A stretch of 64,000 bases of DNA from Blastococcus haudaquaticus (GTDB taxonomy: Bacteria; Actinomycetota; Actinomycetes; Mycobacteriales; Geodermatophilaceae): positions 310,001 to 374,000 of the forward strand of contig NZ_OCNK01000003.1 in NCBI RefSeq assembly GCF_900230285.1, read 5' to 3'. Under the pieces are notes generated by a model. The model ran no database searches. It had not been told where the DNA came from and saw only the letters and a list, made by a program, of their open reading frames with translations. A program made the position numbers and the translations under genes. Shown here in pieces: positions 35,328-51,817 of the stretch (positions within the stretch are counted from its first letter, which is position 1; each line of letters starts with the position of its first letter).

Positions 35328-35401
35328 TCGGGGTGACAGGATTTGAACCTGCGGCCTCGTCGTCCCGAACGACGCGCGCTACCAAGCTGCGCCACACCCC
35401 G
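35328..35401 (-). tRNA. tRNA-Pro (anticodon CGG)
   Basis: A 74-nt cloverleaf. The acceptor stem is CGGGGTG/CACCCCG with discriminator A, the D arm GCGCAGCTTGGTAGCGC, the anticodon stem CGTCG/CGACG with loop TTCGGGA (anticodon CGG, reading CCG), and the T arm GCAGGTTCAAATCCTGT. The 3' CCA is not encoded. No introns. Confidence 0.97.
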
Positions 35402-36344: not shown

Positions 36345-36397
36345 GGTCGGAGAGCCTACGTGCGCGGTCCGTGCGCGCACCGTGCCAGGCTGGTGCG

Positions 36398-36850
36398 GTG
36401 GCTGACCTGAAGAACCGCCTGCGCGAGGACCTGACCACCGCGATGAAGGCGCGCGACGAGCTGCGGACGGCGACGCTCCGCATGGTGCTGACCGCCGTCA
36501 CCTCCGAGGAGGTGTCGGGCAAGGAGGCCCGCGAGCTCTCCGACGACGAGGTGATGGGCGTGCTGCGGCGCGAGGCGAAGAAGCGCCGTGAGGCCGCCGA
36601 GGCGTTCGCCGGCGCCGGCCGCGCCGAGCAGGCCGAGCGCGAGGAGGCCGAGGGGGGCGTGCTGGCGGACTATCTGCCGGCGCAGCTGGAGGACGCCGAC
36701 CTGGCCGCGATCGTCGCCGACGTCGTCACCCGGACCGGCGCGTCGGGCATGAAGGACATGGGCAGGGTCATGGGCGCGGTGCAGGGCGCCGTCGCCGGCC
36801 GCGCCGAGGGCGGCCGGGTCGCCGCGGAGGTGCGCCGCCAGCTCGGCTGA
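36398..36850 (+). CDS. GatB/YqeY domain protein
   Basis: A 150-residue soluble helical protein of the YqeY family, opening VADLKNRLREDLTTAMKARDELRT with SEMKDMGRVMG-like signature GASGMKDMGRVMG near 115-128. The domain resembles the tail of GatB that binds tRNA; YqeY is thought to be a tRNA-related accessory factor. GTG 36398 is used because homologues begin at this ADL motif. It lies 53 bp from the divergent phosphoesterase. Confidence 0.9.
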   Translation: MADLKNRLREDLTTAMKARDELRTATLRMVLTAVTSEEVSGKEARELSDDEVMGVLRREAKKRREAAEAFAGAGRAEQAEREEAEGGVLADYLPAQLEDADLAAIVADVVTRTGASGMKDMGRVMGAVQGAVAGRAEGGRVAAEVRRQLG

Positions 36851-36900
36851 GGCCTCCTCCAGGGGCTCGCCGCGAGCCTGCGAGCGGTGAGGAGGAGGCT
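36851..36900. repeat. Conserved-core hairpin, copy R4
   Basis: Arms GCCTCCTCC (36852-36860) and GGAGGAGGC (36891-36899) enclose a core that on the minus strand reads CACCGCTCGCAGGCTCGCGG and on into CGAGCCCCT. The core is near-identical to those of R1-R3 but the arms are unrelated to theirs. It lies between two convergent genes and probably terminates both. Confidence 0.8.
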
Positions 36901-36908
36901 TCCCTTCC

Positions 36909-39167
36909 TCAGTCGTCGAAGGGGAAGCCCTCGCCGAACGGGTCCTCCTCGGTGGTCCCCTCCTGCACGGGCGGGTCCACCGGCGTCGCCGGCTGCTCCG
37001 TCGTGCCGGTGTCGTCGGGGGTCTGGCCGTCACTCGGCGCCGAGGGCTCGTCCCGCTCGTCGTCCCGGTCGTCGCCCCGCCCGTTGTCCGGCGCCGGCGC
37101 CGGACGTCCGGAACCCCGGGTGCCCGCGGCGACGGCGGGGTCCTCGGGCGGGAAGCTCGCCGTCGGCCGGCCGCTCAGGACGGGCTCCATCGCGTCGTGC
37201 CAGATCGTCGCGCCCTTCCCACCACCGAAGCCGCCGACGCTGCGATCCTCGACCGAGTTCCACACCAGGACGCTGGCCGAGTACTCGGGCGTGTAGCCGA
37301 CGAACGCCACGGACGCGTTGTTGTTGATCGTTCCGGTCTTGCCGGCGATCTCGTGGCCGGGGATGTACGCCCGGCTCGCCGTCTGGCCGGAGTAGCCCGG
37401 CTCGACGTCCTTGCGCAGCATCTGGTTCAGCGTGTTGGCCACGCCTGCGGGAATGGCCTCCGCCGTGCAGCTGTCGCCCTTGACCACCGGCTGGCCGTCG
37501 TCGCCGACCACCGGCTGGCCCCCGCGGTCGAGGACCTGCACCACGGGGGTGGGGTCGCACCGCGTGCCGCTGGCGGCCAGCGTCGAGTAGGCGCTCGCCA
37601 GGTCCAGGGGGCTGACCGCGTCGGTGCCGAAGGTGAACGACCCGCGGTTCTCCTCGATGATCTGGTCGGCGGGAGTCTGCGTGACCGGGTTGTCGAACTT
37701 CATGCCCATCCGCTCGGCCATGCGCACCGGTCCTTCGACCGAGCCGAGCGCGTCCTCCATCGCCAGGAAGTACGTGTTCGACGACATGTACAGGGCCCGC
37801 TCCATGTCGAGCGTGCCCGGGTAGCCGCTGCCGGCGTTCGGGACGCAGTACATGCCGCCGTTGTTCCGCCCCTGGCAGGGGCCCCGGTAGACCCGCGAGG
37901 TGTACGGGTCGGACGTGCTGATGGTGTAGCCCTTGCCGTACCCCTGCTCGAGCGCTGCGGCGGCGGTGAACACCTTGAAGGTCGACCCGGATCCGCGGCT
38001 CGGCACGACGTTCAGGTTGACCGACTCGCACTCCTGCGACTCGGCGTCGCAGCCGTACCGGCGGTTGTTGGCCATGGCCAGCACGTGGCCGGTGCCCGGT
38101 TCGACCGCGGTGTAGGTGCCGACCAGCTCGTCGCCCATGGCGAGCGTGTTGAGGACCGCCTGTTCCCCGGCGGCCTGCATGTCCGGTCGCAGCGTGGTCT
38201 GGATCGTCCAGCCGCCGTTCTTGATCTCGTTCTCGCTCAGGCCCAGGGTGCCGGTCAGGTAGCTGAGGACGTAGGCGCAGAAGAAGCCGCCCGTCGTGGC
38301 GTCGATGCAGCCGTTCTGCGGGTTCGCGCCCGGGGTGACGGCCACCGGCTGGGCGGAGATGTCGGTGAGCTCCTGCGGGGTGATGTGCCCGAGGTCGGCC
38401 ATCCGCTGCAGCACCTGGTTGCGCCGGATCTGCGCGTTCTCGGGGTTGGTGATCGGGTCGTCGTTGGCGGGGCTCTGCACGAGGCCGGCCAGCATGGCGG
38501 CCTGGGGGAGCGTCAGGTCGATCGCGTTGACGCTGAAGTACTTCTGCGCGGCGGCCTGGATGCCGTACGCGCCCTGCCCGAAGTACACGATGTTCAGGTA
38601 GCGGGTGAGGATCTCGTCCTTCGAGAAGGTCTCCTCCAGGGCCATCGCCAGCCGCGCCTCGCGCAGCTTGCGGCCGACGTTCTGCTCGGTGGCCGCCTGC
38701 CGGTCCTCGGGCGTCGTCGCCGTCTGCAGCAGGGTCTGCTTCACCAGCTGCTGCGTGAGGGTCGAGCCACCCTCCTGCACCGAGCCGGCCGCCACGTTCT
38801 TGACGAGGGCGCGCATGGTGCCCTGCACGTCGAGGCCGTTGTGCTCGTAGAACCGCGAGTCCTCGATGTCGACCAGCGCCCGCTTCATGATCTCCGAGAT
38901 CTGATCGGGCGCCACCGGCGTGCGGTTGTTCTCGTACAGGTACGTGATCAACGATCCGTCGGCGGCCAGGACCTGGCTGTTGCCGGCCGGCGTCTTGTCG
39001 GTCAGCTCGACCGGCAGGGCGTCCAGCAGCGACGCCGAGTTGCGCGCGACCAGACCCGTCCCCCCGACCCAGGGGAACAGGAGGCCGGCGAGCAGCGCAC
39101 CGGCGACGACGATCGTCGCGACGAGCTTCGCGAGGGCACGGGACCGGGACTGCACGTTCTCCGACAT
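36909..39167 (-). CDS. ponA2: Bifunctional penicillin-binding protein (class A)
   Basis: A 752-residue peptidoglycan glycosyltransferase/transpeptidase. There is a short cytoplasmic start and a membrane anchor (about 14-34). The GT51 domain (about 70-260) has EDSRFYEHNGLD and GGSTLTQQLVKQ. The transpeptidase domain has SGSTFK, SSNTYF and GKTGT motifs (about 390-620). The C-terminal 90 residues are Pro/Asp/Glu-rich; the PASTA domain of mycobacterial PonA2 is not seen. It keeps the position beside the Get3-like pair seen in mycobacteria, but the whiB4 gene found between them there is missing. Confidence 0.93.
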   Translation of the reverse strand: MSENVQSRSRALAKLVATIVVAGALLAGLLFPWVGGTGLVARNSASLLDALPVELTDKTPAGNSQVLAADGSLITYLYENNRTPVAPDQISEIMKRALVDIEDSRFYEHNGLDVQGTMRALVKNVAAGSVQEGGSTLTQQLVKQTLLQTATTPEDRQAATEQNVGRKLREARLAMALEETFSKDEILTRYLNIVYFGQGAYGIQAAAQKYFSVNAIDLTLPQAAMLAGLVQSPANDDPITNPENAQIRRNQVLQRMADLGHITPQELTDISAQPVAVTPGANPQNGCIDATTGGFFCAYVLSYLTGTLGLSENEIKNGGWTIQTTLRPDMQAAGEQAVLNTLAMGDELVGTYTAVEPGTGHVLAMANNRRYGCDAESQECESVNLNVVPSRGSGSTFKVFTAAAALEQGYGKGYTISTSDPYTSRVYRGPCQGRNNGGMYCVPNAGSGYPGTLDMERALYMSSNTYFLAMEDALGSVEGPVRMAERMGMKFDNPVTQTPADQIIEENRGSFTFGTDAVSPLDLASAYSTLAASGTRCDPTPVVQVLDRGGQPVVGDDGQPVVKGDSCTAEAIPAGVANTLNQMLRKDVEPGYSGQTASRAYIPGHEIAGKTGTINNNASVAFVGYTPEYSASVLVWNSVEDRSVGGFGGGKGATIWHDAMEPVLSGRPTASFPPEDPAVAAGTRGSGRPAPAPDNGRGDDRDDERDEPSAPSDGQTPDDTGTTEQPATPVDPPVQEGTTEEDPFGEGFPFDD

Positions 39168-39208
39168 CGGCGTCGAATGTACGTGGCTCCCGGGCGCTGA
39201 TGCCGTGG

Positions 39209-40444
39209 TCAGGCGCGGCGCGCGGGGAGGACGCGCGTGCGCGGTGTGCCCGTCGGCGTGTCATCGTCCGCGCCGGTCAGGGCGTCGGCCATGCCCCGCA
39301 GTCCGTCGAGGTCGTGGACGTCCCCCGCGGCGGCCGGCACGGTGCGCACGGCGACCTCCGGATGGGCGCTGGTGAACCGGTCGGCGAGGTGCTGCTCCCG
39401 GGTGGCCAGGAGCATCCGCTCGGCGTGCACGCGCAGCGCCGCCGCGGCCAGGCCGGCCCCCGGTCCACCGGCCTCGGCGACCTCCTCGGCCGCGCCCTCG
39501 GCCCGCGTGGCCGACAGCGCCGTCGTCGCCGGCGGGTGGGTGCGGTTGACGACGAGGCCGGCCAGCGGCATGCCCTCCGCCGAGAGCCGGTCGACGAAGT
39601 AGGACGCCTCGCGCAGCGCGTCGGGCTCCGGCGTCGCGACGACGACGAACCAGGTGCCCGGCCGGCGGAGGAGCTCGTAGGTCGCGGTCGCGCGCTCGCG
39701 GAAGCCGCCGAACATGGTGTCCAGCGCCGCCACGAAGGCGGAGATGTCGCGCAGCAGCTGCCCGCCCAGGATCTTGCTGATGATCCGGCTGAAGAACATG
39801 AAGCCGGCGCTGGCGATCTTGAAGCCGGACCGGCTGGGCGCGGTGAGCAGCCGGATCATCGTGCCGTCGAGGAACCGGCTCATGCGGTTCGGGGCGTCGA
39901 GGAAGTCCAGCGCCGACCGCGACGGCGGGGTGTCGACGATGATCAGGTCCCACTGGTCGCTGGCCCGCAGCTGGCCCAGCTTCTCCATCGCCATGTACTC
40001 CTGCGTCCCGGAGAAGGAGGACGACAGGGTCTGGTAGAAGGGGTTCTCCAGGATCGCCTGGCCGCGTTCGGGCGTGGAATGAGCGGTGACGATGTCGTCG
40101 AACGTCCGCTTCATGTCCAGCATCATCGCGTGCAGTTCGCCGTCGGCACCCGGTACTTCCACCCGCCGCGGCTCGTTGTCCAGCTCCACCAGCCCGAGCG
40201 ACTGGGCCAGTCGCCGGGCGGGGTCGATGGTGAGGACGACGACCGTCCGGCCGGCTTCCGCGGCGGCCAGCGCCAGGGCGGCCGACGTCGTCGTCTTGCC
40301 GACGCCACCGGCGCCGCAGCAGACGACGATCCGCGTCTCCGGGTCGGTGATCAGCGCCTGCAGGTCCATCGCGGGCGCGACGGGTGCGGGGCGGGCCGGG
40401 CGGGTGGCCCGTGCCGGGCGCTCCGGCTGCGCGGCGGCGCTCAC
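39209..40444 (-). CDS. bagB: ArsA/Get3-like ATPase (BagB-type)
   Basis: A 411-residue P-loop ATPase. The Walker A is GAGGVGKTT (about 42-50), in which the signature lysine of the deviant Walker A (KGGxGKT) is replaced by Ala. Switch motifs IIVDTPPS and LTIDPARRL follow. The first 25 residues are Pro/Ala-rich. Mycobacterial Rv3679-Rv3680 (BagA-BagB) form a heteromeric complex in the same genomic context, and Rv3680 also carries AGGVGKT. The partner probably supplies the intact lysine. GTG start overlaps the bagA stop by four bases. Confidence 0.88.
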   Translation of the reverse strand: MSAAAQPERPARATRPARPAPVAPAMDLQALITDPETRIVVCCGAGGVGKTTTSAALALAAAEAGRTVVVLTIDPARRLAQSLGLVELDNEPRRVEVPGADGELHAMMLDMKRTFDDIVTAHSTPERGQAILENPFYQTLSSSFSGTQEYMAMEKLGQLRASDQWDLIIVDTPPSRSALDFLDAPNRMSRFLDGTMIRLLTAPSRSGFKIASAGFMFFSRIISKILGGQLLRDISAFVAALDTMFGGFRERATATYELLRRPGTWFVVVATPEPDALREASYFVDRLSAEGMPLAGLVVNRTHPPATTALSATRAEGAAEEVAEAGGPGAGLAAAALRVHAERMLLATREQHLADRFTSAHPEVAVRTVPAAAGDVHDLDGLRGMADALTGADDDTPTGTPRTRVLPARRA

Positions 40445-41442
40445 GCGGCCGCCACCTCGGTGCGCAGGTGGTCCTCGAGACGGGCGGCCAGCTCGAACAG
40501 CGAGCCCAGGTCCATCGGCCCGGTCAGGAGGGGCAGCTCGATCGTCGGCCGGCCGAGCGCCTCCACCTCGTCGCGCAGCGCGTCCTGCCCGGCCCATCGC
40601 CGGGCGTGCTCGGTCACCTCGGCCACGAGCGCCTGCGCCAGTTCCGGGCCGCCGGTCAGGTGGGCGGCGGCCAGCGCCGGCGCGAGGTCCGCACCGGTGA
40701 GCCGGCCCTCCGCCGCACGGGTGAGCTCCTCGACCGGGAGCACCGGCTCGGTGGCCATGTTGACGATCACCGAGCCCACCGGCAGCTCGGCCTTCGTGAG
40801 CTCGTCGATCGCGTCGGCGGTCTCCTGCACCGGCATGTCCTCGAGCAGGGTGACCAGGTGCACCGCCGTCTGTGGCGAGCGCAGCACCGCCATCACGCCG
40901 TCGCTCTGGGTCTTGATGGGACCGGATCGGGCCAGCTGCCCCATCTCGTTGGTGACGTTGAGGAACCGCGTGATGCGGCCGGTCGGTGGTGCGTCGACGA
41001 CGACGGCGTCGTAGACGGGCCGGCCGTCGTGGCGGCGGGTCACCGCCTCCTTGACCTTGCCGGTGATGAGGACGTCCCGGAGGCCCGGCGCGATCGACGT
41101 CGCGAAGTCGATCGCGCCCATCTTGCGGAGCGCCCGTCCGGCACGGCGCAGGTTGTAGAACATGTCGAGGTAGTCCAGCAGCGCCTCCTCGACGTCGATC
41201 GCCAGCGCCTTGACCTCGCCGCCGCCCCGGGTGACCGCCACGCGACGCTCCTCGTAGGGGAGCGGTGGCGTGTCGAAGAGCTGGGCGACGCCTTGCCGGC
41301 CCTCCGTCTCGACCAGCAGCACCGTGCGGCCGTCGGAGGCCAGGGCGAGGGCCAGCGCGGCGGCGACGGTGGTCTTGCCGGTCCCGCCCTTGCCGGTGAC
41401 GACGTGCAGGCGCACGGGGGAGGAGTCGGGGCTCACCTGCAC
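40441..41442 (-). CDS. bagA: ArsA/Get3-like ATPase (BagA-type)
   Basis: A 333-residue ATPase with the complete deviant Walker A GKGGTGKTT (about 17-25), switch-I-like LLVETEGRQG, and VVVDAPPTGR in switch II. It matches the bacterial Get3-like A subunit; in mycobacteria the pair affects stress and metabolite tolerance, and transport of anions is only predicted. GTG 41442 is the ORF start; a second GTG two codons later is equally possible. It forms an overlapping pair with the following gene. Confidence 0.88.
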   Translation of the reverse strand: MQVSPDSSPVRLHVVTGKGGTGKTTVAAALALALASDGRTVLLVETEGRQGVAQLFDTPPLPYEERRVAVTRGGGEVKALAIDVEEALLDYLDMFYNLRRAGRALRKMGAIDFATSIAPGLRDVLITGKVKEAVTRRHDGRPVYDAVVVDAPPTGRITRFLNVTNEMGQLARSGPIKTQSDGVMAVLRSPQTAVHLVTLLEDMPVQETADAIDELTKAELPVGSVIVNMATEPVLPVEELTRAAEGRLTGADLAPALAAAHLTGGPELAQALVAEVTEHARRWAGQDALRDEVEALGRPTIELPLLTGPMDLGSLFELAARLEDHLRTEVAAA

Positions 41443-41524
41443 CAGCCTAGGAGCAGCGTAAGGACCCCGTCCTCCTCACACCTCGCAAGCTCAGCCTGAG
41501 CCTCGGGACGGAGCCGTGCTGCGC

Positions 41525-41530
41525 TAGCGT
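41525..41530 (+). promoter_or_regulatory. -10 hexamer TAGCGT, probable leaderless DUF4177 transcript
   Basis: TAGCGT fits TANNNT and lies six bases before ATG 41537 with no ribosome binding site between, in the gap between divergent bagA and the DUF4177-ridA-NUDIX operon. Confidence 0.5.
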
Positions 41531-41536
41531 CGCCCC

Positions 41537-41707
41537 ATGACCGAACCCGCCCGCCGCCGGTGGGAGTACGCCACCATCCCGCTGCTGATCCACAACACCA
41601 AGGCGATCCTCGACTCCTGGGGCGTCGACGGGTGGGAGCTGGTGACCGTGCTCCCGGGGCCCGGCGGCTCCGACCAGCTGGTCGCCTACCTCAAGCGACC
41701 GGCATGA
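41537..41707 (+). CDS. DUF4177 small protein
   Basis: A 56-residue protein, MTEPARRRWEYATIPLLI at its start and WGVDGWELVTVLPGPG in the middle, typical of DUF4177 proteins (mycobacterial Rv3678A position). Function unknown. It starts an operon: its stop overlaps the start of the RidA gene (ATGA). Too short to be supported by length alone; the family match and conserved neighbourhood make it real. Confidence 0.85.
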   Translation: MTEPARRRWEYATIPLLIHNTKAILDSWGVDGWELVTVLPGPGGSDQLVAYLKRPA

Positions 41708-42159
41708 GCTGGCACGCCCGCCTCGCCGAGCTGGGCATCCGTCTCCCGGCCGTCGCGGCACCGGTCGCCGCGTACGTGCCTGCCGTCCGCACGGGCAACC
41801 TGGTCTTCACGTCGGGCCAGCTGCCGTTCGTCGACGGCGGCCTGCGCCGCACCGGCAAGGTCGGCGGATCCGTCGATGCCGAGGCGGCCGCGGCGGACGC
41901 GAAGGTGTGCGCCCTCAACGCCCTGGCGGCGATCGACGAGCTCGTCGGCCTGGATTCCGTGGCCCGCGTCGTGCGGGTCGTCGGCTACGTGGCCAGCGCC
42001 GAGGGGTTCAGCGGCCAGCCGCGCGTGGTGAACGGCGCCAGCGAGCTGCTCGGCAAGATCTTCGGCGAGGCCGGCCAGCACGCCCGCAGCGCCGTCGGCG
42101 TCGCCGAGCTGCCCCTGGGCGCCCCGGTCGAGGTCGAGCTGACCGTCGAGCTCAGGTGA
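41704..42159 (+). CDS. RidA family protein
   Basis: A 151-residue YjgF/RidA/L-PSP fold protein. Conserved features are NLVFTSGQLPFVDG near residues 37-50 and the C-terminal EVELTVEL strand. The group is close to Rv3678c. Classical RidA hydrolyses reactive enamine/imine intermediates; the Arg that binds the carboxylate (usually in the R-x-x-x strand near 105) is not obvious here, so the activity is uncertain. The start is fixed by ATGA overlap; GTGA overlap leads on to the NUDIX gene. Confidence 0.85.
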   Translation: MSWHARLAELGIRLPAVAAPVAAYVPAVRTGNLVFTSGQLPFVDGGLRRTGKVGGSVDAEAAAADAKVCALNALAAIDELVGLDSVARVVRVVGYVASAEGFSGQPRVVNGASELLGKIFGEAGQHARSAVGVAELPLGAPVEVELTVELR

Positions 42160-42950
42160 CCGCGGAGCCGAGGCAGGCGGCGACCGTGCTCCTGCTGCGG
42201 GACGGCGCTCCCGGACTCGAGGTCTATCTGCTCCGACGCACCAAGGGCATGCCGTTCGCCGGCGGGATGACCGCCTACCCCGGGGGTGGCGTCGACCCCC
42301 GCGACGGCGATGTCGAGGTCGGCTGGGCCGGCCCGTCCCCGGCGCAGTGGGCCGCGGCCTTCGGCTGCGACGAGCGGACGGCGCGCGAGCTGGTCTGCGC
42401 CGCGGTGCGGGAGACCTTCGAGGAGGCGGGCGTGCTGCTCGCCGGTGATCCCGACGGCGGCGCCGTCGTCCCGGACGTCTCCGGGGACGACTGGGAGGCG
42501 CAGCGGCAGGCCCTGCTGACCCGGGACCTGTCGCTGACCGAGCTGCTGGCCGGCCGTGGCCTGGCGCTGCGGTCGGACCTGCTGCGGCCGTTCGCGCACT
42601 GGATCACCCCGCCGGTCGAGCCCCGGCGCTACGACACCAAGTTCTTCGTCGCCGCGCTGCCGGTGGGGCAGGAGGCGCGGGACGTCTCGGGGGAGGCCGA
42701 CGAGGCGTCCTGGCTGACGCCGTCCGCTGCCCTGGCCGAGGCCACCGCCGGAGCCCGGCCGATGCTGCCGCCGACCACGCACACGCTCGGCCAGCTGCAG
42801 CCGTTCCCCGACGTCGCGGCCGCCCTCGCCGGGTCGCCGCCGGAACCGCTGCACCCGATCAGCCCCACGTTCGAGGAGACCCCCGACGGCCACTGGGCCG
42901 TCCTCCCCGACGGCACCCGCATCCGCATGGTCGTGCCACTTCCATCGTGA
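42156..42950 (+). CDS. NUDIX hydrolase
   Basis: A 264-residue NUDIX protein. The Nudix box reads GGGVDPRDGD with a long insertion before RETFEEAGVLLAG (about 100-113). The final part binds the substrate. This subgroup (NUDT19-like) is large and may act on CoA or nucleotide sugars. GTG start in GTGA overlap. Its TGA lies in the first stem of the second stop-codon element. Confidence 0.8.
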   Translation: MTAEPRQAATVLLLRDGAPGLEVYLLRRTKGMPFAGGMTAYPGGGVDPRDGDVEVGWAGPSPAQWAAAFGCDERTARELVCAAVRETFEEAGVLLAGDPDGGAVVPDVSGDDWEAQRQALLTRDLSLTELLAGRGLALRSDLLRPFAHWITPPVEPRRYDTKFFVAALPVGQEARDVSGEADEASWLTPSAALAEATAGARPMLPPTTHTLGQLQPFPDVAAALAGSPPEPLHPISPTFEETPDGHWAVLPDGTRIRMVVPLPS

Positions 42951-43048
42951 TCCTCCGGATCACACCGCGGCCAGGTGCCGTTCCCCCGCTGCGCCGAGCC
43001 GTTGCGTCGCGCCGTCGCAGGACCCCTTCGGGGCCCACTCGGCGCGAC
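42947..43048 (+). repeat. Two-hairpin element on a stop codon (copy B, after NUDIX)
   Basis: Hairpin 1 is GTGATCC-TCC-GGATCAC (42947-42963) and contains the NUDIX stop. The linker matches copy A. Hairpin 2 has arms GTCGCGCCG/CGGCGCGAC (43006-43014 with 43040-43048) around an inner CCCC-TTC-GGGG. Compared with copy A, C-G in stem 1 has become T-A on both sides. It lies between the convergent NUDIX and crp genes. Confidence 0.75.
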
Positions 43049-43072
43049 AGGCGCGTCCCCCGGAACGCAGGA

Positions 43073-43100
43073 GGCCCCGCACCACTCCGGGTGCGGGGCC
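43073..43100. terminator. Terminator hairpin of crp
   Basis: GGCCCCGCACC and GGTGCGGGGCC form an 11-bp stem with a 6-nt loop, 20 bases beyond the crp stop. It could work in both directions for the convergent NUDIX gene. Confidence 0.7.
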
Positions 43101-43120
43101 GTCCGTCGTTCAGTGCTGTC

Positions 43121-43795
43121 TCACCTCGCGCGGCGGCGCAGGCGCTCCTCGTCGAGGACGACGACCGACTTGCCCTGCAGCTGGATCCAGCCGCGGTGCA
43201 CGAAGTCGGCCAGTGCCTTGTTCACGGTCTCGCGCGAGGCGCCGACCAACTGGGCCAGCTCTTCCTGCGTGAGGTCGTGCTTGACGCGCAGGCCGTCGCT
43301 CTCGCGGCTGCCGAACCGGTCGGCCATCTGCAGCAGCGCCTTGGCCACGCGGCCGGGGACGTCGGTGAAGATCAGGTCGGCGACCGAGTCGTTGGTGCGG
43401 CGCAGGCGACGGGCCAGGACGCGGAGCAGCTGCTCGCCGATCTCCGGGTGCGCCTCGATCCACGGGCGCAGCACGCTCTGCGGCATGCGGGCCAGCTTCA
43501 CGTCGGTCACCGCGGTGGCGGTCGCCGTGCGCGGGCCGGGGTCGAACACCGACAACTCGCCGAACTGGTCGGACGGGCCCATGACGGCCAGCACGTTCTC
43601 GCGGCCGTCGGGCGACCGGCGGGACAGCTTGATCTTGCCCGAGACGACGATGTAGAGGCTGTCGCCGGGCTCGCCCTCGTTGAAGACGACGCGGCCGCGG
43701 GGCAGCGTGATCATCTCCAGCCGACTGGCGACGGGGCTCACCGCGTCCTCCGAGAGCCCCTGGAAGATCCCGGACTGGGCCAGCACCTCGTCCAC
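43121..43795 (-). CDS. crp: CRP/FNR-family global regulator
   Basis: A 224-residue protein nearly colinear with mycobacterial Crp (Rv3676). The cAMP-binding domain has [16 protein letters not shown] (phosphate-binding cassette, about 70-85). The C-terminal helix-turn-helix reads [24 protein letters not shown]. In mycobacteria and Corynebacterium (GlxR) it controls carbon and respiration genes, including acs. GTG 43795 is chosen because GAGAGGA lies seven bases upstream and it gives the same length as the homologue. Confidence 0.95.
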
Positions 43796-43821
43796 TGCAC
43801 GTCCTCTCACTGCCGTTCATG

Positions 43822-43839
43822 CGGACGCAGAGGCGTCCG
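43822..43839. promoter_or_regulatory. Leader hairpin CGGACGC-N4-GCGTCCG
   Basis: Perfect 7-bp arms with a 4-nt loop in the 5' leader of crp, 27 bases above the start codon. It may stabilise or attenuate the transcript, or be an operator half. Confidence 0.35.
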
Positions 43840-43850
43840 GCTCCGGAGCG

Positions 43851-43856
43851 AGTCTA
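43851..43856 (-). promoter_or_regulatory. -10 hexamer TAGACT of crp
   Basis: On the minus strand TAGACT fits TANNNT, with a possible -35 GGTGAC sixteen bases further up. That -35 overlaps the CRP-like site at 43863. Confidence 0.4.
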
Positions 43857-43862
43857 GGCGGC

Positions 43863-43878
43863 TGTGCAGTCGGTCACC
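43863..43878. promoter_or_regulatory. CRP-like site TGTGC-N6-TCACC upstream of crp
   Basis: Matches 8 of 10 positions of the CRP/GlxR consensus TGTGA-N6-TCACA and lies where it would cover the crp -35, consistent with negative autoregulation as known for other CRP proteins. Confidence 0.4.
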
Positions 43879-43946
43879 CGTTCGGTGGGTCGCCGCGTCC
43901 CTCGTTGGAGCGAGTGGGCTGGACCACAGGCAGGGCCGCGGGCGAC

Positions 43947-44186
43947 CTAGACCATCGGAGGGTTGGCCGTGGCGCCGCGGTTCCTGCGGCGCCGACGCCA
44001 CCGGTTGAGCGCCCGGCGGATGCCCGACGTCGCGAGGGTGTCGACCTCGCCCGGCGTGGCGGTGTCGAGGAACTCCGACACCTCGCGGGGCCCGGCCGGC
44101 CGGCGCAGCGGCTCCTCGACGCGCTCCATCACGAGCAGGAAGGCGATCAGCAGCGGGGGGAAGAGGATGACGCTCAGTGCCACCAT
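43947..44186 (-). CDS. Small single-helix membrane protein
   Basis: A 79-residue protein with one N-terminal membrane helix (about 2-22, VALSVILFPPLLIAFLLVM) and a basic tail ending in Arg runs. It takes the position of Rv3675 between crp and nth in mycobacteria. ATG 44186 is chosen because GGAGGACAGGC lies upstream; the longer open frame from 44249 lacks support. Function unknown. It is divergent from nth and upstream of crp in the same direction. Confidence 0.7.
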   Translation of the reverse strand: MVALSVILFPPLLIAFLLVMERVEEPLRRPAGPREVSEFLDTATPGEVDTLATSGIRRALNRWRRRRRNRGATANPPMV

Positions 44187-44275
44187 GCCTGTCCTCCACC
44201 TCCGCGCGCGGGCGGCTCCGCGCCGACCTGTCGGTTCCCAGGATGACACGCCCCGAACCCGTCAGCGGGGCCGCC

Positions 44276-44281
44276 TACGCT
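44276..44281 (+). promoter_or_regulatory. -10 hexamer TACGCT, probable leaderless nth transcript
   Basis: TACGCT fits TANNNT, exactly seven bases before GTG 44289, with no ribosome binding site between. Confidence 0.45.
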
Positions 44282-44288
44282 CGACCGC

Positions 44289-45113
44289 GTGTCCCTGCCC
44301 GTGTCCCTGCCCGTGACGCAGCCGCCCGCGCAGCCTGCCTACGCCCGTCCGGCGCCGCCCCGTCGCCCCGCTCCGGCCGCCCGCACCGGCGCCTCACCCT
44401 TCGACGCGTCCGAGACGTCGCTGTCGCGGACCCGCCGCGCGCGGCGGATGTCCCGCGAGCTGGCGCTGATCCACCCCGACGCGCACTGCGAACTGGACTT
44501 CACGAACGCCTTCGAGCTGCTCGTGGCCACGGTGTTGTCGGCCCAGACCACCGACAAGATGGTCAACAAGGTGACGCCGACGCTCTTCGCCCGCTACCCC
44601 GACGCGGTCGCCCTCGCCGGCGCCGACCGTGACGAGCTGGAGACCATCCTCAAGCCGACCGGGTTCTTCCGGGCCAAGGCCAACTCCGTGCTGGGGCTCA
44701 GCCAGGCGCTGGTCGAGCGCTTCGACGGCGAGGTGCCCGGCCGTATGGCGGACCTGGTGACCCTGCCCGGCGTCGGCCGGAAGACCGCCAACGTCGTCCT
44801 CGGCAACGCCTTCGGGGTGCCCGGCCTCACCGTCGACACCCACTTCGGCCGGTTGGTCCGCCGGTTCGGCTGGACCGCGGAGGAGGACCCGGTCAAGGTC
44901 GAGGCGGAGATCGCCGAGCTGATCCAGAAGAAGGAGTGGACCGACTTCAGCCACCGCGTGATCTTCCACGGCCGTCGGGTCTGCCACGCCAAGAAGGCCG
45001 CCTGCGGTGCCTGCGGCCTGGCGAAGTGGTGCCCCTCCTTCGGCATCGGCCCGGTGGACCCCGAGGTCGCGCTGAGGCTGGTCAAGACCCCGGCCGCGTC
45101 GGACACCGAGTGA
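44289..45113 (+). CDS. nth: Endonuclease III
   Basis: A 274-residue DNA glycosylase/AP lyase for oxidised pyrimidines. The helix-hairpin-helix [12 protein letters not shown] contains the catalytic Lys, and the Asp lies in VDTHFGRL. The 4Fe-4S ligands follow as C-x6-C-x2-C-x5-C ([17 protein letters not shown]). The N-terminal 45 residues are a Pro/Ala-rich extension without counterpart in E. coli Nth, as is usual in actinobacteria. GTG start; first gene of nth-tlpA-nudL operon by TGATG overlap. Confidence 0.94.
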
Positions 45114-45676
45114 TGCGGCCCCGCGCACTCGCCGTCGCCTGCCTGCTGGCCCTGACCGCCTGCTCCTCGGAGGAGGCCCCCGCGCCGGACGGCGCCGACG
45201 CCCAGCCGACGTCGCTCACGGCCTGCCCCGAGCAGCCCGACGTCGCGGCTCAGGGGGACGAGCTCATGCCGGCGCTGTCGCTGGACTGCCCCGGCGGCGG
45301 CACGCTGGACCTCGGCCGGGCCCCGGGGATGCCGACCGTGGTGAACCTCTGGGGGAGCTGGTGCGGCCCCTGCAGGGAGGAGCTGCCGCTGCTGCAGGAC
45401 TTCGCCGCAGGCGCCGGCGAGCAGGTGCGCGTCGTCGGCGTGATCAGCCGGGACGGCGTGCCCCAGGCGGAGTCGTTCGCGGCCGATGCCGGCATCGGCT
45501 TCCCCAACGCCTTCGACGGCGAGGGCGAGCTGATGGCCGGCCTGGGCCTCAACGCGCTGCCCTTCACCTACTTCCTGGACGCCGAGGGGGGCGTGGTGCA
45601 CGTGCAGACGCGCCCGGTCAGCTCCGTCGACGAACTGCGTGCGCTCGCCACCGAGCACCTCGGGGTCCAGCTGTGA
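45113..45676 (+). CDS. TlpA/ResA-like thioredoxin lipoprotein
   Basis: A 187-residue exported thiol-disulfide protein. The signal peptide ends in the lipobox LTAC (Cys17), giving a lipid-anchored protein on the outer face of the membrane. The thioredoxin domain (about 65-187) has active-site WCGPC, and LGLNALPFTYFLD provides the cis-Pro. Expected role: keep thiols of apocytochromes or cell-wall proteins reduced. Overlaps nth by TGATG and the NUDIX gene by GTGA. Counterpart of Rv3673c. Confidence 0.9.
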   Translation: MRPRALAVACLLALTACSSEEAPAPDGADAQPTSLTACPEQPDVAAQGDELMPALSLDCPGGGTLDLGRAPGMPTVVNLWGSWCGPCREELPLLQDFAAGAGEQVRVVGVISRDGVPQAESFAADAGIGFPNAFDGEGELMAGLGLNALPFTYFLDAEGGVVHVQTRPVSSVDELRALATEHLGVQL

Positions 45677-46443
45677 GCGCCGCGGAGGCCGACGGCCGGA
45701 CCGACGACCTGCCCGACTACCTGGTGCGCCTGCTCGACGCGGCCGGCGACCTGCCGCTGCGCCACCGCATGCCGCAGGCCGGCGCCACGGCCCGCCGCTC
45801 CGCCGTCCTGATCCTGTTCGGCGAGAGCGCCGCGGGACCCGACGTGCTGCTCATCGAGAAGTCCGCGCACCTGCGCAGCCACGCCGGGCAGCCCGCCTTC
45901 CCGGGCGGCGGGGTCGACCCCGGGGACGACTTCCCGGTGGGGACGGCGTTGCGGGAGGCGCAGGAGGAGGCGGGGATCGACCCGGCCGGCGTCCGGGTGC
46001 TGGCGACGCTCCAGGAGCTGTACCTCCCGCCGTCGGACCGTCTCGTCGTCCCCGTGGTGGCCTGGTGGGACGACCCGCGCGACGTCAGCGTCGGTGATCC
46101 GCAGGAGGTCGCCCGGGTGGCCCGGGTGCCCCTGGCGGAGCTGGTGAACCCGGCCAACCGCTTCCGGCTCCGCCATCCCCTCGGTTACGTCGGGCCGGCC
46201 TTCGCGGTGGCCGACATGCTCGTGTGGGGCTTCACCGCCGGTCTGCTCGAGGCCATCCTCGACGCGGCAGGTCTCGCACAGCCGTGGGACGAGCGCGACG
46301 TGCGACCCATCCCCGAGTCGATGCTGCGGCCTTACACCCTCCCCGGCTCCGGGGACGACGACCCCGAGGGCGACGCCGCCGCGCCGACGGTCGCCGATCC
46401 CGCACCGGACGGCCCGCCGACGCGTACGGTTCGGCCCCGATGA
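45673..46443 (+). CDS. CoA-type NUDIX hydrolase
   Basis: A 256-residue NUDIX protein of the NudL/CoAse subgroup. The UPF0035 signature LRSHAGQPAFPGGGVDP leads directly into the Nudix box with REAQEEAGID (about 96-105). It probably hydrolyses CoA or acyl-CoA at the pyrophosphate. GTG start in GTGA overlap with the thioredoxin gene. A Pro/Asp-rich tail ends in the ATGA overlap with the next gene. Counterpart of Rv3672c. Confidence 0.88.
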   Translation: MSAAEADGRTDDLPDYLVRLLDAAGDLPLRHRMPQAGATARRSAVLILFGESAAGPDVLLIEKSAHLRSHAGQPAFPGGGVDPGDDFPVGTALREAQEEAGIDPAGVRVLATLQELYLPPSDRLVVPVVAWWDDPRDVSVGDPQEVARVARVPLAELVNPANRFRLRHPLGYVGPAFAVADMLVWGFTAGLLEAILDAAGLAQPWDERDVRPIPESMLRPYTLPGSGDDDPEGDAAAPTVADPAPDGPPTRTVRPR

Positions 46444-46916
46444 AGGAGAGGACCCTCTTGCCCCCCACCGCTCGCAGGCTCGCGGCGGGCCCCCGCAAGA
46501 GGGCCGCCGCGGCCTCCCTGGCGATCGTCGTGCTCGCCGGATGCGGCGGCGGCGAGGAGGCTCCCGGTGCGGCAGCGCCCAGCACCGCGGACGGCGTCGG
46601 CGAGGTCACCACGGCGCCCGACGGCGCCCAGGAGATCACCCTCCAGACGCAGGACGACTACGTGTTCGTCCCCGACCGCTTCACCGTCGCGCCGGGCACG
46701 GTCCGCCTGACAGTGGTCAACGTGGCCGAGGAGATGACGCACAACCTCGAGTTCTCCGGGGGCGGGCCCGAGGAGATCTCCGAGGGCATCTCGCTGCTGG
46801 CGCCCGGCGAGGAGAAGACCATCGAGTTCGAGGTGAGCGCGCCCGGCGACCAGCCGTTCGAGTGCACCTTCCACGTCCAGCTCGGGCAGGTCGGCACGAT
46901 GACGGTGAGCGGCTAG
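46440..46916 (+). CDS. Cupredoxin-like lipoprotein
   Basis: A 158-residue protein with a lipobox VLAGC. A type-1 copper fold follows (about 65-158): His in MTHNLEF, then C-T-F-H and Met near the end (CTFHVQLGQVGTM), the usual His-Cys-His-Met set. The signal peptide n-region is encoded by repeat R1. ATG 46440 is suggested by ATGA overlap, but TTG 46458 has AAGGAGAGG at the right distance and removes six residues; both are possible. It sits where no gene exists between NUDIX and marP in mycobacteria. Confidence 0.78.
   Translation: MKERTLLPPTARRLAAGPRKRAAAASLAIVVLAGCGGGEEAPGAAAPSTADGVGEVTTAPDGAQEITLQTQDDYVFVPDRFTVAPGTVRLTVVNVAEEMTHNLEFSGGGPEEISEGISLLAPGEEKTIEFEVSAPGDQPFECTFHVQLGQVGTMTVSG
46450..46505. 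repeat. Conserved-core hairpin, copy R1 (inside the lipoprotein start)
   Basis: Arms CCCTCTTGC (46453-46461) and GCAAGAGGG (46495-46503), with an outer GG/CC pair beyond a bulged A. The core is CCCCCACCGCTCGCAGGCTC then GCGGCGGGCCCC. In the same orientation and with the same bulged A as R2, but with different arms. It encodes residues LLPPTARRLAAGPRKR of the lipoprotein leader. Confidence 0.8.
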
Positions 46917-46919
46917 CCG

Positions 46920-48101
46920 GTGAGCCTCGTCGACGTCGTCCTCATCGTCCTGGCCCTGGTGTTCGCGCTGTCCGGCTTCCGACAGGGCCTCGTCGTCTCG
47001 TCCACGTCGATCCTCGGCTTCCTCGGCGGCGCCGTCGTCGGGGCGCAGCTCTCCGGTCCCGTCGCGGAGCGGATCGACGGGTCCAGCGTCACGCGGGTCT
47101 TCGCGGCCCTGGTGGTGGTGCTCGCCGCGGCGCTGCTCGGTCAGATCCTCGCGGGAGCGATCGGGCGGGCCATCCGCGGCCAGCTCACGTGGGAACCGGC
47201 GAAGATGCTCGACTCCGTCGCGGGTGCGGTCGTCTCGGCGACGGCGGTCCTCCTGGTCGCCTGGATGGTCGCCTCCCCGCTGGCGAGCTCGCCGTTCCCG
47301 CAGGTGGCCAGCCAGGTCCGGCAGTCGGCGCTCGTCCAGGCCGTCGACCGCGCCGTCCCCGACGGGGTGCGCACGGTCTACGACAACCTCCGCGACGCCA
47401 TCGACCGGCGGGGCCTGCCCGATGTGCTCGACCCCCTCACCCCCACGCAGGTGCGCGACGTCGAGGCGCCCGACCAGGCGCTGCTGGCCAGCCCCGTGGT
47501 GGCGTCGGTCCAGGGGTCGGTCGTCAAGATCAGCGGGGTCGCGGCGTCGTGCTCGCGGCAGATCGACGGCTCCGGATTCGTCTACGCCCAGGAGCGGGTG
47601 ATGACCAACGCGCACGTGCTGGCAGGCGTCACCGACCCCGTCGTGCTGGCCGAGGGCGAGGAGTACGACGCCACCCCCGTGTACGTGGACGAGGAGATCG
47701 ACGTCGCCGTCCTCGCCGTCCCGGGGCTGGACACGGTGCCCCTGTCGTTCACCGCCCAGTCCGCCGACGCGGGCGACGACGCGATCATCATGGGCTATCC
47801 CGGCGGCGGTCCGTTCTACGTCGGTGCGGCCCGGGTGCGTGACCGCGGCGAGATCAGCGGCCCCGACTTCCGCAACTCCCAGACCGTCGTGCGCGACGTC
47901 TACGCGCTGTTCGGCACGGTCCGCGCCGGGAACTCCGGCGGTCCGCTGTTCGCCCCCGACGGCAGCGTCCTCGGCGTCGTCTTCGCCTCCGCCATCGACG
48001 ACCCCGACACCGGCTACGCGCTCACCGGGCCCCAGGTCTCGGAGGCCGCGACGGTGGGCAGCCAGGCCGTCGCCGAGGTCGGCACCGGCCCGTGCGAGTG
48101 A
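46920..48101 (+). CDS. marP: Membrane serine protease MarP-like
   Basis: A 393-residue protein with four CvpA-like N-terminal helices (about 4-22, 30-48, 58-80 and 97-118) and an extracytoplasmic chymotrypsin-fold protease (about 185-390). The triad is visible: His in TNAHV, Asp in EIDVAVL, Ser in GNSGGPL. Two cysteines (in AASCSRQ and GTGPCE) could form the redox-sensing disulfide of MarP. MarP protects mycobacteria from acid and oxidative stress by processing a cell-wall hydrolase. GTG start, four bases after the lipoprotein stop. R2 follows as terminator. Confidence 0.92.
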   Translation: MSLVDVVLIVLALVFALSGFRQGLVVSSTSILGFLGGAVVGAQLSGPVAERIDGSSVTRVFAALVVVLAAALLGQILAGAIGRAIRGQLTWEPAKMLDSVAGAVVSATAVLLVAWMVASPLASSPFPQVASQVRQSALVQAVDRAVPDGVRTVYDNLRDAIDRRGLPDVLDPLTPTQVRDVEAPDQALLASPVVASVQGSVVKISGVAASCSRQIDGSGFVYAQERVMTNAHVLAGVTDPVVLAEGEEYDATPVYVDEEIDVAVLAVPGLDTVPLSFTAQSADAGDDAIIMGYPGGGPFYVGAARVRDRGEISGPDFRNSQTVVRDVYALFGTVRAGNSGGPLFAPDGSVLGVVFASAIDDPDTGYALTGPQVSEAATVGSQAVAEVGTGPCE

Positions 48102-48103
48102 AA

Positions 48104-48160
48104 GGACCCCCGTTCCCCCCACCACTCGCTCCGCTCGCGGCGGGTCCCTGAACGGGGGCC
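48104..48160. repeat. Conserved-core hairpin, copy R2
   Basis: Arms CCCCCGTTC (48107-48115) and GAACGGGGG (48150-48158), preceded by GGA and followed by CC as in R1. Core: CCCCCACCACTCGCTCCGCT, then CGCGGCGGGTCCCT. Two bases after the marP stop, so very probably its terminator. Confidence 0.85.
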
Positions 48161-48189
48161 GTTCCAGCGCGTCACCACGGGCCGCCGCG

Positions 48190-49116
48190 CTACGCGGCCC
48201 AACGGGCGATGGCCTCGGTGACCTCGGTGGGGGATTCCTCGTGGGGGAAGTGGCCGATGCCGGGGAGCTCCCGGAACTCGTAGGCGCCCGCGACGTACCG
48301 GCCCGAGCCGCGAGCGGTGCCGACCAGCACGCAGGAGTCCAGCGTCCCGTGCAGTTGCAGCGTGGGTGCGGTGACCGGAGCCGACATCCGCCGGGCGTAA
48401 CGCAGCCCGTCGGGCCGCAGCTGCGAGCGGGCCGCCCAGCGGTAGTACTCCATCGCGCCGTAGGCGGCCTGCGGGATCCGGGCGGCCGCCCGATAGCGGT
48501 CCACCGCTTCCGCGAAGTCCGGCGTACGCGTCCACGCCGGCCCGGACCAGCGCTGCATGAGGTCGGCCACCGGGTCGTCGTCGGCGCGGGTCAGCCGGCG
48601 CTCCGGCAGACGCGGCACCTGGAACCCGAGGGCGTACCGCGACGCCTTGCGCTGCGCGGGGTCGGTCATGCCGGCCCGCAGCCGCCGGGGATGCGCCATG
48701 GAGAGGACCACCAGCCGGCGCACGGTGCGCGGGTGCAGCGCCGCCATGGTCCAGCCGAGCAGCCCGCCCCAGTCGTGGCCGACCACGACCGCCTCCTGCT
48801 CACCGAGTGCGCGCACCAGCGCCGCGACGTCGGCCGACAGCGTGGGCAGGTCGTACCCCCGCGGTGGCTTGTCGCTGGCGCCGTAGCCGCGCAGGTCGGG
48901 GGCCACGACGTGGAAGCCCGCGGCGGCCAGGTCGGTCAGCTGCGACCGCCAGGTCCACCAGAACTGCGGGAAGCCGTGGAGCAGCAGCACCAGCGGTCCC
49001 TCGCCGGCCTCCGCCGCGTGCAGCCGGACGCCGTTGGCGGAGATGTCGCGATGGGTCCACGGCCCCGGGAGCAGGACGCTGGTCGCGTCCGGCGGGCCGT
49101 TCACCGGGTCCGGCAC
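48190..49116 (-). CDS. ephE: Alpha/beta hydrolase, epoxide hydrolase type
   Basis: A 308-residue alpha/beta hydrolase. The oxyanion-hole motif is LLLHGFPQFWW (about 44-54), and the nucleophile is Asp115 in GHDWGG rather than Ser, which marks epoxide hydrolases and haloalkane dehalogenases. The general base His is in GIGHFPHEE near the C-terminus. The position matches Rv3670 (ephE). GTG 49116 is chosen just after the holin-X stop; GTG 49104 is an alternative. Substrate unknown. Confidence 0.85.
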   Translation of the reverse strand: MPDPVNGPPDATSVLLPGPWTHRDISANGVRLHAAEAGEGPLVLLLHGFPQFWWTWRSQLTDLAAAGFHVVAPDLRGYGASDKPPRGYDLPTLSADVAALVRALGEQEAVVVGHDWGGLLGWTMAALHPRTVRRLVVLSMAHPRRLRAGMTDPAQRKASRYALGFQVPRLPERRLTRADDDPVADLMQRWSGPAWTRTPDFAEAVDRYRAAARIPQAAYGAMEYYRWAARSQLRPDGLRYARRMSAPVTAPTLQLHGTLDSCVLVGTARGSGRYVAGAYEFRELPGIGHFPHEESPTEVTEAIARWAA

Positions 49117-49123
49117 GCCCCGG

Positions 49124-49636
49124 TCAGACCGTGTAGGAGTCGGTGCCCGCCCGCTTGACCCGGCCGTTGCTGACCTCCGGGACGGCGCGGTGACGCTCGC
49201 CCGGAGCCTCGCGGTGCAGGACGTCGGGCAGGTCGGAGAGGGTCTCCATCGTCCGCTCGGGCTTCTCGATCTTTTTGAGCATCCGCTTCCCGATGAGCGC
49301 GCAGACACCCGCCAGGAGCAGCAGGAACACCGTCACGATCCCGTAGGAGATCCAGCGGGGGAGCCCCAGGGCGGTCAGCGCCTCGGCGACGGTCACGAAG
49401 AAGTAGATGCCGGCGAAGGCGACCAGCACGCCCGCCGCGGCGAACAGCCCGATGCTGATCCCGGCCTTCTTCGCCGACTTCCCGATCTCGGCCTTGGCCA
49501 GCTCGATCTCGCTGCGGACCAGCGTCGACATGTCCGCCATGGCGCTCTGGACCAGGGTGCCGACGGACGGCTCCTCGGCACCTGCGGACCGGACTGCCGG
49601 CGGCGTGCTGGACGCGCTGGACACACTGTGGGCCAC
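49124..49636 (-). CDS. Actinobacterial holin-X family membrane protein
   Basis: A 170-residue protein with an amphipathic start, two membrane helices (about 60-82 and 92-115) and a basic tail. This is the Phage_holin_3_6/Holin-X pattern (VGTLVQSAMADMSTLVRSEIELAKAEI). Most such proteins have no phage link; function unknown. GTG 49636 has AGGAGGAGC five bases upstream. It is the first gene of a pair with ephE. Confidence 0.85.
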   Translation of the reverse strand: MAHSVSSASSTPPAVRSAGAEEPSVGTLVQSAMADMSTLVRSEIELAKAEIGKSAKKAGISIGLFAAAGVLVAFAGIYFFVTVAEALTALGLPRWISYGIVTVFLLLLAGVCALIGKRMLKKIEKPERTMETLSDLPDVLHREAPGERHRAVPEVSNGRVKRAGTDSYTV

Positions 49637-49753
49637 GAGTGGCTCCTCCTGTCGGGCTGCGCTGCGCGCGGTGGATCGATCGTCCTGCTCAGGGGAATGG
49701 TGCCGCACCTCCAGGCAGTGCGCGCTATGGCCCCGTCCAGACGCTCGCCCCGG

Positions 49754-49802
49754 CCCCTTGCAGGGGCCCGACGCGAGCGTGCGACCGGTGGGGGGCAAGG
49801 GG
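49754..49802. repeat. Conserved-core hairpin, copy R3
   Basis: Arms CCCCTTGC (49754-49761) and GCAAGGGG (49795-49802). On the minus strand the core reads CCCCCACCGGTCGCACGCTC then GCGTCGGGCCCCT. It lies between acs and the promoter region of the holin gene. A T-run follows only on the + strand. Confidence 0.8.
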
Positions 49803-49808
49803 TGTTTT

Positions 49809-51761: not shown

Positions 51762-51817
51762 GCGGTACCTCCCTAGTCCGGCGGCGCGCGCTCGGGGCGG
51801 CGCTGCCACGCTCACAT

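Follow-up and report, generated by a model that had tools for sequence, protein, structure and literature searches.

A REP-like mobile palindromic repeat of Geodermatophilaceae, commonly placed behind stop codons and probably kept for the fold of the opposite strand

A 64,000-nucleotide stretch of Blastococcus haudaquaticus (NCBI RefSeq assembly GCF_900230285.1, contig NZ_OCNK01000003.1, positions 310,001 to 374,000; hereafter the window, that is, the whole stretch of DNA that was analysed) raises the question of what a set of look-alike hairpins at and near gene ends is, and what keeps it there. Four such hairpins with a common core were recorded in a first-pass annotation made from the letters alone, and terminators, mobile elements of the REP/BIME (repetitive extragenic palindrome/bacterial interspersed mosaic element) type or protein-binding sites on RNA were offered as explanations. 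All four were recovered by a covariance model (53.5-80 bits), together with a fifth copy. The hairpins are regarded with high confidence as a real, mobile and family-specific repeat. On the whole, a REP-like mobile repeat that is retained on the opposite strand as an outward-facing terminator is slightly favoured as the explanation.

The covariance model (R1; 61 positions and 18 pairs, built from 29 selected copies with the structure supplied by hand) found at least 150 copies across the 4.5 Mb genome, all with an E value of 1.3e-4 or better, and this count is a lower bound because it was taken from the best 150 of 11827 first-look candidates. The hairpins are thus not, as had been stated, all gathered within 13 kb of one conserved block. 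In the 800 kb searched whole with R1, the weakest accepted copy scored 32.5 bits and the next match 19.8 bits. Allowing up to 3 mismatches, the 21-base core gave 88 matches in the own genome, of which 41 were forward and 47 reverse, versus 3 for the reversed control. A pattern scan of species genomes gave at least 80 loci, all of the listed ones in Geodermatophilaceae records, and the genera among the listed matches were Geodermatophilus, Blastococcus, Modestobacter and Trujillonella, plus other Geodermatophilaceae. At an E value of 0.001, R1 matched 18 of 18 relatives inside the family (genome G015 by one weak match alone) and 0 of 12 genomes of other families in the same order; the 14 relatives of the same genus other than G015 gave 28 to 151 matches each at this threshold. 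At an E value of 1e-5, matches were found in 28 of the 38 genomes of a family sample (own genome included), ranging from 5 to at least 143 per genome, and the ten genomes without a match were those labelled g18 (4), g21 (4) and g23 (1) and G015, which belongs to the same genus as the window genome and yet gave 0 matches at this threshold. In a phylum sample of 296 genomes, run under stricter filters with the best 18 candidates per genome scored, the own genome was the sole one to match (0 of the 295 others). The repeat has so far been seen only in Geodermatophilaceae, a family of soil and stone bacteria. Carriage by phages or plasmids was not supported by two narrow searches, one of viral contigs with one exact pattern (0 matches) and one of plasmids with one 61-base copy (no match).

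Mobility is well supported and the repeat is called REP-like because orthologous sites may hold or lack a copy and because nested, tandem and inverted copies occur. Orthologous sites were compared by eye. At the 3' end of the window's ColicinV/trypsin gene, which we take to be MarP-like (copy 4 in Table 1), the element or a clear remnant of it was found in 20 of 30 genomes (the best 30 of 57 matching ones), and the site was empty in 10. Between the stop codon and the 3' half of an older element, a reversed element is present in G013, G009 and G002; at another site, in G012, an element bearing TAGAAGGACC was nested in the loop of a second element. In a comparison of 400 kb with G012, a counterpart was recognized for 5 of the 15 own copies (one degenerate) and for 4 of the 8 G012 copies, and a further site common to both genomes was occupied by differing arm types. 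One exact filled/empty pair was obtained, namely TAAGA, hairpin, GTCA in G012 (L290) versus TGAGA directly followed by GTCA in the own genome, with no target-site duplication at this one pair and the remaining pairs too diverged to be read.

The copies look mostly single, some being close, nested or tandem. In G045, identical 66-nt units stand in tandem at two contig ends (L346, at a contig start, and L347, at a contig end), an arrangement that points to a longer array at which the assembly broke. At a shared site between converging genes (L319:2286-2346 in the own genome and L286:16039-16099 in G012), like arms and loop lie in opposite orientation, as if the element had been flipped in place. 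The EF-Ts gene of the own genome is flanked by copies on both sides (L001:1479-2461), and two copies were found in similar surroundings in G045 (L352); these are possibly an old insertion pair in a core operon.

The consensus was drawn by eye from 89 copies of this genome (the four of the window and 85 others) as AAGGACCCCnnTGCCCCCCACCgCTCGCAnGCTCGCGGCGGGnCCCTGCAnnGGGGCC, followed by GTTCCA in some copies. The element is about 60 bp in length, with outer arms that pair mutually and an inner stem (CCCaCCGC/GCGGcGGG) that closes the conserved loop TCGCAnGCTC. The arms had been described as unrelated from copy to copy; most copies in fact share GGACC..GGCC, the variation lying mainly in the middle of the arm and occurring in pairs, and two arm types (..TGC/GCA.. 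and GTCCTCCTC/GAGCCTCTGGAC) were distinguished, plus intermediates.

The fold is supported by covariation across copies and not by the folding energy of single copies, which was unremarkable in comparison with shuffled sequences (z from -0.6 to -1.7). In an alignment of 99 copies, standard pairs made up 92.9% of the cells versus 80.1% after shuffling, two-sided changes occurred in 14 of the 18 pairs and 198 cells were doubly changed versus 51.3 in shuffles; none of 500 shuffles attained any of five covariation measures, and the signal was abolished by sliding the partner. A second set of 136 matches, mostly on named contigs, gave 220 doubly changed cells versus 52.1. Both alignments were fitted to the model and are therefore biased towards it, and the copies are related to each other; alignments A3 (fetched by core similarity) and A4 (fetched mostly by a pattern of 5' arm plus core) are both selected samples. 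On the nearly gap-free alignment A1, from which two matches had been removed beforehand, one at the edge of a locus and the other a chance match, RNAalifold returned only 5 inner pairs, because the arm lengths differ. Selection on the fold had been proposed in the first-pass annotation, with a lack of further copies or of covarying arms named as evidence to the contrary; at least 150 copies and covarying stems were found, and selection on the fold is supported, given covariation far above that of the shuffled and slid controls.

The position relative to stop codons, also named there as a check, proved to be regular where a stop was identified. Genes and stops were called by our own codon-score scripts and not by a gene finder. 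A coding-supported stop was present within 25 nt upstream in 70 of 98 copies, and the 25 nt searched held no such stop in the other 28. In all but one of the 70 (69), the distance from stop to stem was -1 to 6 nt. A wider search of 89 copies found a stop close by in 63, 31-42 nt away in 4 and none in 22; same-strand coding sequence reads towards 69 of these copies, opposite-strand coding sequence towards 15 and neither towards 5. Between codirectional neighbours, 34 copies point with the genes and 10 against them (p 4e-4).

The base adjoining the stem was A in 90/98 copies and the next base A in 77/98. TAA stops were enriched at elements (10/70 versus 9/362 genes, p 2e-4) and TAG stops were not, as if the stop were sometimes completed by the purine tag. 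At the MarP-like site, a stop other than TGA was found in 13/20 occupied versus 2/10 empty genomes, which is a hint only (p 0.05). Within a 400-kb stretch, 10 of 361 gene ends carried a copy. Converging gene ends without the element folded below -30 kcal/mol in 38% of cases versus 11% of shuffles (n=53), so that hairpins seem to be wanted at such ends, which speaks for an outward terminator.

The strand whose fold is kept was examined through one-sided stem changes. Read on the gene strand, A·C oppositions outnumbered G·U by 94 to 22 in both alignments together, the three outermost pairs being excluded because a bulged A misaligns there (117 to 30 when all 18 are counted). At the opposition within the inner stem, A·C stood in 193 of the 222 copies that could be read, T·G in a single one and G·T in none. 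Because an A·C opposition reads as G·U on the complementary strand, this pattern is the one expected from selection on the opposite strand. It cannot be put down to a simple mutation bias, because conserved unpaired sites trend the other way (C>T at 36/2135 and G>A at 2/467). The opposite strand was the more stable one in 97/99 and 133/136 copies with RNA energies and in 90/99 and 124/136 with DNA energies, and in a copy that was examined the gene-strand bulged A joins a G·U pair on the opposite strand. A tail with at least 3 T among 8 bases was found on the opposite strand in 78/98 and 112/135 copies and on the gene strand in 8/98 and 13/135. Judged from these sequence patterns, the opposite strand is probably the selected one.

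An account of the repeat can be assembled from these results. The repeat is a REP-like mobile palindrome of Geodermatophilaceae, about 60 bp long and with a GTTCCA... tail in some copies, which lies, in most copies with an identifiable nearby stop, within a few bases of that stop and mostly points with the gene. The kept fold would, judging statistically from the stem changes, be that of the strand opposite to the gene. On that strand the bulged A, which is conserved, and the opposed A and C turn into G-U pairs, and a T-rich tail running into the stop codon comes after the hairpin. Such a hairpin may act in the manner of an intrinsic terminator and halt convergent or antisense transcription at the gene end, and this action would let the repeat persist there; an enzyme would move or copy the repeat itself in the form of a DNA hairpin. 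The role as an outward terminator is put forward tentatively, with the balance somewhat against it, and between an as yet unnamed enzyme as the mover and recombination with replication slippage of hairpins the scales are even. The broadest form of the proposal, in which mobile DNA hairpins of neither the GTAG/CGTC REP, the RAYT (REP-associated tyrosine transposase) nor the attC kind would be spreading outward barriers to antisense or convergent transcription, moved by a class of enzyme not yet known, is doubtful.

Several observations weigh against this account. As to the strand, a single inner pair contributes 44 of the 94 A·C oppositions (50 versus 21 without it), part of the T-rich tail comes from reading the stop codon in reverse, and the strand counts are not independent, given the relatedness of the copies. 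The element is reversed in 5 of the 20 occupied MarP-like sites. Convergent ends were not significantly enriched (28 of 62 elements versus 132 of 361 gene ends, p 0.20), which counts because an outward terminator would be most useful at such ends, and a consensus terminator scan (rule: 5 T of 8, loop of 3-8) called 0 of the 5 window sites. As to movement, no mobilising gene was detected in the own genome, in 57 family genomes or among the ten proteins scanned from intervals between close copies.

The five copies in the window are given in Table 1, with the neighbouring genes. The R1 scan of the window separated them (80 to 32.5 bits) from a next-best match of 17.3 bits. The core with up to 3 mismatches gave 3 matches in the window versus 0 in 100 shuffles, and the copy at 48102 has a one-base insertion in its loop and was therefore not caught by this pattern. 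In the first-pass annotation the arms had been given to the wrong copies: GCCTCCTCC belongs to the copy at 36.85 kb, CCCTCTTGC to that at 46.45 kb, CCCCCGTTC to that at 48.1 kb and CCCCTTGC to that at 49.75 kb. Two of the cores (46.4 and 48.1 kb) are on the + strand, the other two (36.8 and 49.7 kb) on the - strand. For copy 2, whose neighbourhood was checked with the codon-score scripts, no coding-supported stop was found upstream, and the orthologous place in G012 is also occupied by a copy.

Table 1. Copies of the repeat in the window and the gene into which one of them is read
Feature	Position in window	Strand	Basis	Placement
Element copy 1	36847..36907	-	R1, 53.5 bits; neighbours assigned by Pfam	Flanked by the stops of two converging genes, one YqeY-like (36371-36850 +) and one for a penicillin-binding protein (36909-39167 -)
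Element copy 2	41460..41518	+	R1, 32.5 bits; overlooked in the first-pass annotation	
Element copy 3	46448..46508	+	R1, 80 bits	Follows TGA of NUDIX gene (45361-46443 +), in frame within the first codons of the next gene
Element copy 4	48102..48163	+	R1, 73.3 bits	Abuts TGA of ColicinV/trypsin gene (46920-48101 +; Pfam)
Element copy 5	49748..49808	-	R1, 60.1 bits	Abuts TGA of acetyl-CoA-synthetase-like gene (49809-51815 -)
Cupredoxin-like protein gene	46440..46916	+	Pfam PF00127, open reading frame, orthologues	

Copy 3 is read as protein. The NUDIX gene and the cupredoxin-like gene overlap as ATGA, the element comes after that TGA, and it encodes, in frame, the N-terminal part of the cupredoxin-like lipoprotein (window 46440-46508), for which a lipoprotein-type signal peptide and a lipobox were both judged by eye. 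The element or part of it was recognized by eye at this junction in 11 of the 29 genomes where the place could be located, and orthologues elsewhere are without the element or have a variant of it; a repeat thus seems to have supplied the rebuilt start of the signal peptide. A coding-looking downstream frame reads through 4 of 98 copies. At L320:7729-7789 in the own genome, another copy coincides with a stop/start overlap (GTGA), and there too the downstream frame seems to traverse the element.

The known classes of element were then compared. PF01797, the RAYT/IS200 transposase domain, had no match in the own genome or in any of 57 family genomes, with 5 of 14 control genomes positive; the partner transposase that the first-pass annotation advised looking for was thus sought without a match. 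Adjoining the stem, neither GTAG nor CGTC occurred on the gene strand (0/98 for both), and GTAG occurred in 0 and CGTC in 2 of 98 copies on the other strand. A RAYT-driven GTAG/CGTC REP is not supported by these two results. In the wide sense of REP, as many dispersed palindromes, mostly extragenic and near 3' ends, the description fits. The suggestion of REP/BIME-type mobile elements accordingly holds for the dispersed, present-or-absent, nested, tandem and inverted copies, but not for the tags or PF01797. An Rfam search of the window at the gathering score returned tRNA only, and the hairpins matched no family, so that a known Rfam family is rejected for them; that sole match is a tRNA gene at window 35328-35401 (-). 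An autonomous parent element between close copies likewise found no support: 18 intervals were viewed and one protein from each of 10 was scanned, of which 9 had an ordinary Pfam domain and 1 had none, and no transposase was among them.

Rather unlikely, and the strongest of the alternatives, is a purely selfish hairpin, for which the strand-specific fold would serve nothing but the hairpin's transfer in single-stranded form as DNA, and insertion behind the stop would simply do the least harm. Presence and absence at orthologous sites, nesting and tandem copies all suit this explanation, as do the DNA energies, which also favour the opposite strand (in the 90/99 and 124/136 copies above), and the same-genus genome G015, which manages without the element at an E value of 1e-5. 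However, harmless insertion alone predicts neither the spacing of -1 to 6 nt from the stop in 69 of 70 copies nor the 34:10 orientation, and no mobiliser was detected.

Actinobacterial terminators have been proposed to consist of a hairpin without a U-tract. The copies might accordingly be ordinary intrinsic terminators of the upstream gene, their loops alike only by common descent, and the place directly behind stops, mostly pointing with the gene, speaks for this. So does the replacement of the element by unrelated hairpins at three sites compared by eye between the own genome and G012, as though some hairpin or other were needed at these places: directly behind the stop at the acetyl-CoA-synthetase and MarP-like sites, the hairpin of G012 is an unrelated one, and at L298:2976-3034 G012 has the element and the own genome an unrelated perfect hairpin of about 21 bp. 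This explanation is nevertheless unlikely. With only 10/361 gene ends carrying it, the element is ruled out as the genome's main terminator; on the gene strand a stable hairpin is present but a T-rich tail is rare (just 8/98, and 13/135 in the second set); G-U, which the RNA of that strand could tolerate, is rarer than A-C; and one copy lies within a downstream reading frame. Of the terminator suggestion in the first-pass annotation, the place behind stops therefore stands, but the small share of gene ends, the scan (0/5) and the T-tail and better fold on the opposite strand speak against it.

That the element serves the upstream mRNA, near its 3' end, as an RNA site for a protein or a processing enzyme is very unlikely: the highly conserved loop TCGCAnGCTC and the orientation with the gene would suit it, but the mRNA strand folds less well and shows A-C instead of G-U, and no Rfam family matches. 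An attC site of integrons is a hairpin behind a gene with the other strand active, and an attC-like site, though it would share this position, the strand logic and roughly the length, is extremely improbable, as the integron integrase TIGR02249 was above the cut-off in 0 of 57 genomes (and in 0 of 14 controls, so that there was no positive control), the neighbouring genes are ordinary and most 3' flanks do not start with GTT. On that integrase result, with its lack of a positive control, an integron attC was rejected; matches below the cut-off, in 57/57 genomes and 14/14 controls, are what other tyrosine recombinases would be expected to give.

No description of this repeat was found in the openly accessible literature on this bacterial group combined with hairpins or palindromes, and the family, its tag, its restriction and its opposite-strand signature were not found described. 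If the account given here, of a repeat retained on the strand opposite to the gene, is true, an actinobacterial family would have a REP-like repeat with a tag of its own and no detectable RAYT, tied to stop codons. The comparison of A·C with G·U in stems is a simple test of the selected strand in any repeated palindrome (REP, SPRITE and others), and sites that hold a copy in one species and lack it in another offer natural experiments on the effects of hairpins on neighbouring genes.

MIRU repeats (mycobacterial interspersed repetitive units) insert at DTGA. In the available text of PMC12548453 and PMC4213456 they resemble the present repeat in being actinobacterial, in being called mobile, in lying at junctions with a -4 stop/start overlap and in being tandem in some cases; they are not described there as palindromes, whereas the copies here are mostly single hairpins behind a stop, with read-through in 4/98. 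The GTAG/CGTC REPs and REPINs (REP doublets forming hairpins), as far as PMC3733652 was available, are likewise short many-copy palindromes near 3' ends with stems varying in pairs; their tag often lends the stop codon, some copies enter reading frames, and CGTC REPs occur without a dedicated transposase. As the place at the 3' end, the lending of stops, the entry into frames and the CGTC case without a transposase are shared, the kind of element is already known. Unlike those REPs, the present repeat has longer arms, an inner stem, a 10-base loop, no GTAG/CGTC tag beside the stem on the gene strand and no PF01797, and belongs to an actinobacterial family, the word "Actinobacteria" being absent from the text of that paper as available. 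Rickettsia palindromic elements, as portrayed in PMC3733652, are palindromes translated within host proteins, as copy 3 is, but translation is exceptional here (4/98). SPRITE and other terminator-like MITEs (miniature inverted-repeat transposable elements) of pneumococcus, compared by description only from the accessible part of PMC10969869, are also mobile, terminator-like and inserted into one another; in contrast to them, the terminator-like features of the present repeat stand on the strand opposite to the gene.

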